Shown here: positions 12,595-12,852 of the stretch, piece by piece | Layout: the number at the start of each line of letters is the position of its first letter | Numbering within the stretch: the first letter of the stretch is position 1 | Assembly: GCF_000341005.1 (NCBI RefSeq) | Contig: NZ_ANBD01000029.1 | Span: forward strand, 1-64,000 | Source of the DNA: Nocardiopsis alkaliphila YIM 80379 | Lineage (GTDB): Bacteria; Actinomycetota; Actinomycetes; Streptosporangiales; Streptosporangiaceae | Length of the DNA: 64,000 bases | Direction of reading: 5' to 3' | Notes under the pieces: generated by a model | Told to the model about the DNA's origin: nothing | What the model saw: only the letters and a program-made list of their open reading frames with translations | The model's database searches: none | Translations under genes and position numbers: made by a program

Positions 12595-12624
12595 TTGCGT
12601 CGCGCCGGGCCCAGGACGTACCTT
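12595..12624 (+). promoter_or_regulatory. Promoter of the orphan micro-ORF RNA
   Basis: TTGCGT (12595-12600) and TACCTT (12619-12624) are 18 bp apart. The predicted start is around 12631, just before the extended ribosome site. The region immediately upstream is AT-rich (TTGAAAAAAC). Confidence 0.55.
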
Positions 12625-12636
12625 GACTGCACGCAG

Positions 12637-12651
12637 GAAAGGAGGTGGTCC
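12637..12651 (+). promoter_or_regulatory. Full-length anti-Shine-Dalgarno complement
   Basis: GAAAGGAGGTGGTCC can pair over all 15 nt with the conserved 3' end of 16S rRNA (one G-U pair). Typical genes in this window have 4-6 nt of such pairing. It precedes the 12-codon ORF by 5 nt, or 11 nt measured from the GGAGG core. Confidence 0.7.
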
Positions 12652-12656
12652 GAAAG

Positions 12657-12695
12657 ATGATTGATCTTAGGACTTGCGAGGTGTCCGTCCGCTAG
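12657..12695 (+). CDS. 12-codon micro-ORF
   Basis: ATG to TAG encodes MIDLRTCEVSVR. The frame begins just after an exceptionally strong ribosome site and ends inside the 5' arm of a hairpin, so translation would melt that structure. No protein gene follows on this strand for about 900 bp, so it is not an ordinary operon leader. A peptide product is possible, but a role for translation itself is equally so. I do not recognise it. Confidence 0.45.
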   Translation: MIDLRTCEVSVR

Positions 12696-12750
12696 GACGA
12701 CGCCGGGTATTCGCTCGACGCTCGTCGCCGGCGAATCTCAGACGGACACC
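12680..12750 (+). ncRNA. Nested stem-loop overlapping the micro-ORF
   Basis: GGTGTCCGTC (12680-12689), inside the micro-ORF, pairs perfectly with GACGGACACC (12741-12750). Within the loop, two alternative inner stems compete: CGCCGG/CCGGCG (12701-12706 with 12728-12733), or ATTCGC/GCGAAT (12709-12714 with 12731-12736). Alternative pairing next to a translated codon run resembles an attenuator or a regulatory RNA. Confidence 0.55.
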
Positions 12751-12813
12751 CGAACCCCGGGCTGTCGGACCTTGTCCGATCCGACCCCTACATGGGAGCA
12801 GGCCCGGGGTTCG
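12751..12813 (+). terminator. 12-bp stem with nested hairpin ending the orphan RNA
   Basis: CGAACCCCGGGC (12751-12762) pairs perfectly with GCCCGGGGTTCG (12802-12813). The loop itself contains TCGGAC/TCCGA pairing. It would end the transcript at about 180 nt, just before the antisense end of the nitrobindin-like gene. Confidence 0.55.
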
Positions 12814-12852
12814 TTCATGTCCGGAACCCTTGGTGGACGAACCCGACCCGGC

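Follow-up and report, generated by a model that had tools for sequence, protein, structure and literature searches.

The locus at positions 12595-12823 of the window, as the whole analysed stretch of 64,000 nt is called here, is a member of the catalogued actinobacterial sRNA family RF02471 (Ms_IGR-5). Comparison of its homologues points to an sRNA that is selected for being translated and that carries two 16S-binding sites, one at the start and one at the stop of a short open reading frame. A check of the sequence found within the locus a promoter, a 16S-tail complement, a 12-codon ORF, a stem on the ORF end and a terminator-like stem. The full Rfam model (positions 1-184) matched at 97.9 bits (E 1e-20) against a gathering score of 45, so that the RNA is not an orphan, as the first-pass annotation had it. 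The fold of the RNA reaches −94.5 kcal/mol (z = −4.1), a value equalled by none of 200 shuffles. Apart from this RNA, the 64-kb window has a single Rfam match, a tRNA gene (RF00005, 41911-41983, plus strand).

Organization of the RNA locus

The features discussed below are as follows.

12595-12624, plus strand: sigma-70-type promoter, −35 TTGCGT (12595-12600), spacer of 18 nt, −10 TACCTT (12619-12624); from sequence and homologues
12631-12823, plus strand: the RNA, about 190 nt, 5' end at about 12631, 3' end approximate, RF02471 match 12631-12819; from Rfam model and fold
12632-12635, plus strand: P1 outer helix, 5' strand, partner 12675-12678; from covariation
12636-12651, plus strand: extended Shine-Dalgarno (SD) sequence GGAAAGGAGGTGGTCC, complement of the whole 16S rRNA 3' tail; 16-nt pairing, unique in the genome
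12648-12651, plus strand: GUCC, the 5' strand of the inner P1 helix, coinciding with the last four bases of the extended SD, partner 12670-12673
12657-12695, plus strand: 12-codon ORF MIDLRTCEVSVR, ATG to TAG; in-frame start and uninterrupted frame across homologues
12670-12673, plus strand: GGAC, alternative partners the end of the SD (P1 inner) and the terminal-hairpin GUCC; from flank covariation
12678-12683, plus strand: second SD-like motif GAGGUG within the ORF, first base to stop 15 nt; from invariance and spacing
12680-12689, plus strand: P2 stem, 5' arm GGTGTCCGTC, last ORF codons, 10 perfect bp with the 3' arm
12741-12750, plus strand: P2 stem, 3' arm GACGGACACC, pairing with 12680-12689
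12751-12813, plus strand: terminal hairpin 12751-12762/12802-12813, 12 bp, terminator-like without a U-run, inner GUCC at 12774-12777; from sequence and fold

The promoter TTGCGT-18-TACCTT proposed earlier is present and is kept at a fixed position in the Actinomycetia homologues: a −10 element TAnnnT is correctly spaced in all 76 of them (control positions 0-2), and the −35 TTG in 67 of the 76. Outside Actinomycetia, the promoter was seen in 18 of 41 loci of other classes. Ms_IGR-5, an sRNA of Actinobacteria, reportedly goes back to the work of Li et al. in 2013 on M. smegmatis. Its transcript has been described in S. lividans (PMC8079986) and S. avermitilis (PMC8780764), and an annotated sRNA of M. 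smegmatis overlaps it (PMC10454040). Ribosome footprints lie on Ms_IGR-5 in M. abscessus and M. smegmatis, with the authors' own caveat that protection can stem from RNPs instead of translation (PMC4974804). No function for RF02471 was found in the accessible literature.

At this locus the neighbours, as judged by eye from sequence, are a ygfZ-like and a nitrobindin-like gene, the downstream gene lying convergently on the opposite strand. By the same judgement, one locus of the Mycobacterium type is flanked by an aminotransferase-like and a nitrobindin-like gene and loci of the Streptomyces type by PAS/phosphatase-type and pdxH-like genes, while elsewhere ligA-like (in another class), gyrA-like, mazG-like or typA-like neighbours were found. 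Since the neighbours differ between clades, the RNA is an independent gene and not a leader, in agreement with the earlier statement that this is not a classical leader. A classical leader or leader-peptide attenuator was rejected as a candidate on the grounds that the next gene is convergent and that the neighbours change between clades. On one contig labelled Eisenbacteria (L179:6859-7196), an FMN riboswitch is located about 40 nt downstream of the RNA on the same strand.

The extended SD GGAAAGGAGGTGGTCC pairs over 16 nt, G-U included, with the 16S end ...GGATCACCTCCTTTCT, which was taken from complete congeners; the 16S rRNA end of the genome itself was not found in its draft assembly. The ribosome site with complementarity to the whole 16S tail, for which 15 nt had been claimed, is thus real and one nucleotide longer. 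In the window it is the longest such complement, the runner-up having 12 nt, and its duplex energy of −29.8 kcal/mol is the lowest, with a gap of 8.6 to the next site (−21.2). The string AAAGGAGGTGRTCC is present once in the 5.2-Mb genome, at this locus. Among complete relatives, GGTGATCC in its exact form turned out to be 16S antisense where it was read, and no genome had more than one occurrence of the GGTGGTCC form. The spacing from GGAGG to the start codon is mostly 11 nt, above the usual length.

The second 16S-binding site, GAGGUG, corresponds to codons 8-9 of the ORF, and all three positions of these codons are invariant among 60 distinct 12-codon ORFs. Its first base precedes the stop by 15 nt in 114 of 118 loci and by 14 nt in the other 4. 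When the stop codon is in the A site, GAGGUG would end 6 nt before the P-site codon, which is a normal SD distance.

Selection on translation and on RNA folding

The homologue set consisted of 118 extracted loci and at least 120 further ones obtained by scanning named genomes with a pattern; 238 were compared, of which 209 are distinct. The ORF, the SD and the stems, whose conservation in relatives had been named beforehand as the decisive comparison, are conserved across these homologues. An in-frame start without inner stop was found in 209/209 distinct homologues (500 shuffled loops, mean 102, maximum 123); read in frame 1 or 2, only 70 or 34 of them, respectively, are open. The reading frame persists while the loop length varies between homologues, the ORF measuring 12-15 codons across the family, and a stop at 14-15 nt from GAGGTG is kept in 235 of 238 loci. 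Among the 209 distinct homologues, 144 use a canonical start and the rest near-cognate codons (CTG, ATT, ATC, ATA, ACG), mainly outside Actinomycetia; the stop is TAG in 159, TGA in 34 and TAA in 16. The 12-codon ORF behind a real ribosome site, as proposed from the single sequence, is therefore borne out by its openness in every distinct homologue.

The peptide itself behaves differently. Codon 1 is NTG, with invariant T and G, in every one of the 60 distinct 12-codon ORFs, and codons 2-4 show an entropy of 1.5-1.8 bits at positions 1-2 and 1.2-1.7 bits at position 3. The C-terminal part T-x-E-V is common among homologues, and the conserved residues of the peptide fall where the RNA is paired or invariant (GGAC, GAGGUG, P2). 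In four loci with the 14-nt spacing (L084, L089, L090, L093), the frame over GAGGUG is shifted and the peptide is wholly different, yet an in-frame start (canonical in three, ATT in L084) and the stop remain. Because the stops interchange and the N-terminal codons drift, it is translation rather than the peptide that is conserved. As far as comparison of sequences goes, this shows translation to be under selection, with a peptide that appears largely free to change. Some amino-acid constraint on codons 2-4 may exist, given that synonymous single changes there amount to 0.34 against a chance expectation of 0.19.

Two subgroups were observed in passing. The 14-nt GAGGTG-to-stop spacing together with a shortened loop is found in L084, L089, L090, L093, L128, L161, L191 and L238; in the four of these loci that were checked, the terminal-hairpin GUCC is absent and the long-range pairing described below is lost, with start and stop kept. 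Outside Actinomycetia, L141, L165, L213, L218, L240, L249, L059, L069, L070 and L080 have a near-cognate codon (ACG, ATT, ATC or CTG) precisely at the position of the start. Such starts recall the IF3-sensed AUU start of infC, and by this analogy the RNA might read initiation fidelity in these lineages.

Three helices and one long-range pairing covary. The P1 outer helix is paired in 204 of 250 cases over 50 distinct combinations from all clades (shuffles, mean 156, maximum 175), with swaps such as CACG/CGUG, CCAG/CUGG and CUUC/GAAG and double changes at 3 of its 4 pairs, and double changes are also seen at 5 of the 10 pairs of P2. The P1 inner helix is paired in 96.8% of cells with G-U variation only, a low variability that says little either way. 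For P1 outer, P1 inner and P2 together, 95.5% of cells are paired in 31 diverse Actinomycetia sequences, compared with 88.6% after shuffling and 31-40% after sliding, and the same sequences show 43 double-change cells versus 14 when shuffled. The flanks of the long-range pairing GGAC/GUCC covary in 132 of 162 cases (shuffles, mean 106, maximum 120; examples CGAC/GUCG and UGAC/GUCA), as measured after anchoring the alignment on GAC/GTC; there was no signal in the unanchored column alignment, in which the groups are out of register. A local partner, GGAC at 12767-12770, is also available to the terminal GUCC in this genus and competes with the long-range contact.

The perfect 10-bp stem on the ORF end and the 12-bp closing stem noted earlier are both present, the latter without a U-run. 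The mutually exclusive structures that had been suspected are likewise supported, by the covarying P1, P2 and long-range pairings as well as by constrained folds, and they compete with translation. When the stop-codon region of this one sequence was held unpaired, the released 3' arm of P2 paired with the SD end (GUCCG/CGGAC). Since all these strands sit on or pair with the SD or the ORF, a ribosome has to undo the fold.

Proposed mode of action

Comparison of the homologues thus shows an evidently conserved layout consisting of a promoter, a nearly complete tail complement between covarying helix strands, a start codon in the loop, an ORF, a fixed distance from stop to GAGGUG and P2 on the last codons. 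Based on this layout, we propose, with about even confidence, that the RF02471 RNA is an autonomously transcribed ribosome-gated switch or ribosome trap. The 30S subunit would dock by its whole 3' tail and displace the GGUCC/GGAC hairpin. A single ribosome would then translate the ORF, undoing P1, P2 and the contact between the ORF GGAC and the terminal hairpin. With the ribosome at the stop, its 16S tail could pair with GAGGUG; with this motif 6 nt upstream of the P-site codon and within reach of the tail, termination or recycling should be slow. The parked ribosome would free the 3' arm of P2, which could pair back on the SD and block further loading. The RNA fold would in this way report or store what state the initiating and terminating ribosomes are in, with an output delivered by the RNA and not by the peptide. 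These steps of docking, translation, pause and feedback are inferred from the geometry and from the folding of one sequence. If such gating is true, the RNA would offer a direct genetic handle on how the cell reads the state of its ribosomes.

The first-pass annotation had suggested either ribosome titration or translation sensing, and either may apply, but the stop codon, its fixed spacing to the second SD-like motif and the covarying folds favour a translation-responsive RNA. As a titrator, the RNA would be a decoy that captures free 30S by the full tail complement and lowers SD-led initiation, perhaps in favour of leaderless mRNAs, with an ORF that only lets the ribosome leave. We consider this unlikely, even though the 16-nt complement is unique in the genome and stronger by 8.6 kcal/mol than any other in the window, and though near-cognate starts in many lineages would slow the exit from the initiation complex: a mere decoy needs neither a fixed distance between stop and second SD nor covarying P2 and long-range pairings on the ORF, and it would have to be very abundant. 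It is distinctly unlikely that the RNA acts in trans by base pairing, with a short ORF that ties the activity or stability of the sRNA to translation and with a target that pairs to a strand exposed by the ribosome, for example the 3' arm of P2. The unit is autonomous, with its own promoter and terminator-like hairpin, the AAUCC motif is conserved and the P2 3' arm is C-rich, as such a role would suggest, but most of its conserved strands are already paired within the RNA.

The two remaining explanations concern the product of the ORF and the gene downstream. The functional micropeptide suggested earlier, a product of 12-15 residues translated behind a strong ribosome site, could account for an ORF kept in all homologues, for the common C-terminal T-x-E-V and for the moderate synonymous excess in codons 2-4; it is nevertheless improbable, as these free codons drift and are as variable at positions 1 and 2 as at position 3, the conserved residues overlap paired or invariant RNA, and the frame switch over GAGGUG in L084, L089, L090 and L093 replaces the peptide. 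Least credible is a cis-acting attenuator, in which the ribosome opens the terminal hairpin and the read-through RNA acts downstream, here as antisense to the nitrobindin-type gene. An ORF with competing stems and a terminator-like stem does look like an attenuator, but the gene that follows lies on the other strand here and varies by clade (pdxH-like for loci of the Streptomyces type, ligA-like for another class), and in L179 the FMN riboswitch is found there instead.

The ribosome-gated RNA that we prefer resembles known systems only in part. Leader-peptide attenuators and translated leaders share with it the short ORF, the competing stems and the terminator-like hairpin, but unlike them it has no conserved downstream gene. 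As in dual-function sRNAs, a conserved translated ORF lies inside an sRNA (209/209 homologues, and footprints in relatives, PMC4974804), but here the free part of the peptide is hardly conserved. Initiation through extended SD pairing is also described for Staphylococcus aureus (PMC13009471); there the extended SD serves many mRNAs, whereas here it belongs to one sRNA-type transcript per genome and is complementary to the whole tail.

Distribution of the family and its possible relation to CC2171

RF02471 was detected in 54 of 60 relatives, with a single copy above the cut-off in each. The pairs drawn in the RF02471 consensus are those of P1 inner, P2, the terminal stem and one inner stem; in the form presented here, neither the ORF nor the outer P1, the 16S-tail complement or the long-range pairing belongs to that model. 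Over 396 genomes sampled across the phylum, the Rfam model matches 70 and a new model, R1, matches 135, under E-value limits that differ (0.01 versus 0.001), which suggests that the Rfam model overlooks about half of the homologues in this sample. R1 was built from Actinomycetia sequences only. Beyond the phylum, the spread seen among the matches listed is to be taken as a minimum. The R1 scores there were 51.3 and 39.3 bits for two loci labelled Eisenbacteria (L220 and L179), 28.8 for Truepera (L157), 22.6 for Bryobacterales (L234), 18.7 for Planctomycetota (L182), 17.8 for Thermoanaerobaculia (L201), 17.1 for an alphaproteobacterial-type locus (L252) and 17.0 for Vicinamibacteraceae (L187), the weak scores being partly circular since most of these loci were picked by their SD pattern. 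Eight 16S antisense controls, which share the SD complement, gave no R1 match at E up to 1.

Independent support comes from the in-frame ORF, for example MEYCSSGLMEVAAP in L187 and MEFDKRGLKEVASS (from GTG) in L201, and the AAUCC/P2 arm is also present in L179, L187 and L220. In single non-actinobacterial sequences, P2 was mostly not significant when judged by shuffling alone, so that these homologies rest on model score and position. Labels of metagenome-assembled genomes can err, and L145, L173 and L180 resemble Acidimicrobiia or Thermoleophilia types by sequence. Taken together, the family evidently extends beyond mycobacteria, across the phylum and to Eisenbacteria and Truepera, while the links to Acidobacteriota, Planctomycetota and CC2171 appear weaker.

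CC2171 (RF01867), a Caulobacter sRNA, has the same order of elements: a 5' 16S-tail complement, next a start codon (consensus CCAGUG), and a terminator last. CC2171-like loci carry a tail complement, a GTG start, a short ORF, in some cases a downstream pairing with the ORF, and a terminator. L252 and L255, of alphaproteobacterial type, have an ORF of 14 codons; in L253 and L255, the end of the ORF pairs with sequence further downstream. The present locus is not a member of RF01867, reaching 13.9 bits against a cut-off of 75, and L201, L182 and L179 (Acidobacteriota, Planctomycetota and Eisenbacteria) reach CC2171 at 28-31 bits, under the cut-off. A common origin of Ms_IGR-5 and CC2171 is possible, and two separately named Rfam families may then be one. 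It is a doubtful but conceivable extension that both are branches of one ancient, bacteria-wide ribosome-monitoring RNA (Actinomycetota, Acidobacteriota, Eisenbacteria, Deinococcota, Planctomycetota, Alphaproteobacteria), with a full 16S-tail dock, a throw-away ORF, a second SD that would hold the terminating ribosome and the fold as output.

Two further variants were seen among the loci collected. In the CC2171-like L252, L253, L255, L260 and L254 (a Methylobacterium plasmid and IMG/VR contigs), a perfect 16S-tail complement is followed by ORFs of 14 to about 33 codons that start with GTG TCT (MSY..., MSH...). The pattern of the actinobacterial RNA, in contrast, yielded nothing in IMG/VR. A compact variant of the RNA is found in Tsukamurella and Gordonia (L265:1498-1571, L136, L142, L193 and L186), with a 5' GTCAAC/TCAAGG, an ORF ending in ...EEVAAA* and a very short P2 loop. 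The variant in L265 sits on a 224-kb plasmid of Tsukamurella tyrosinosolvens, possibly as a mobile extra copy.
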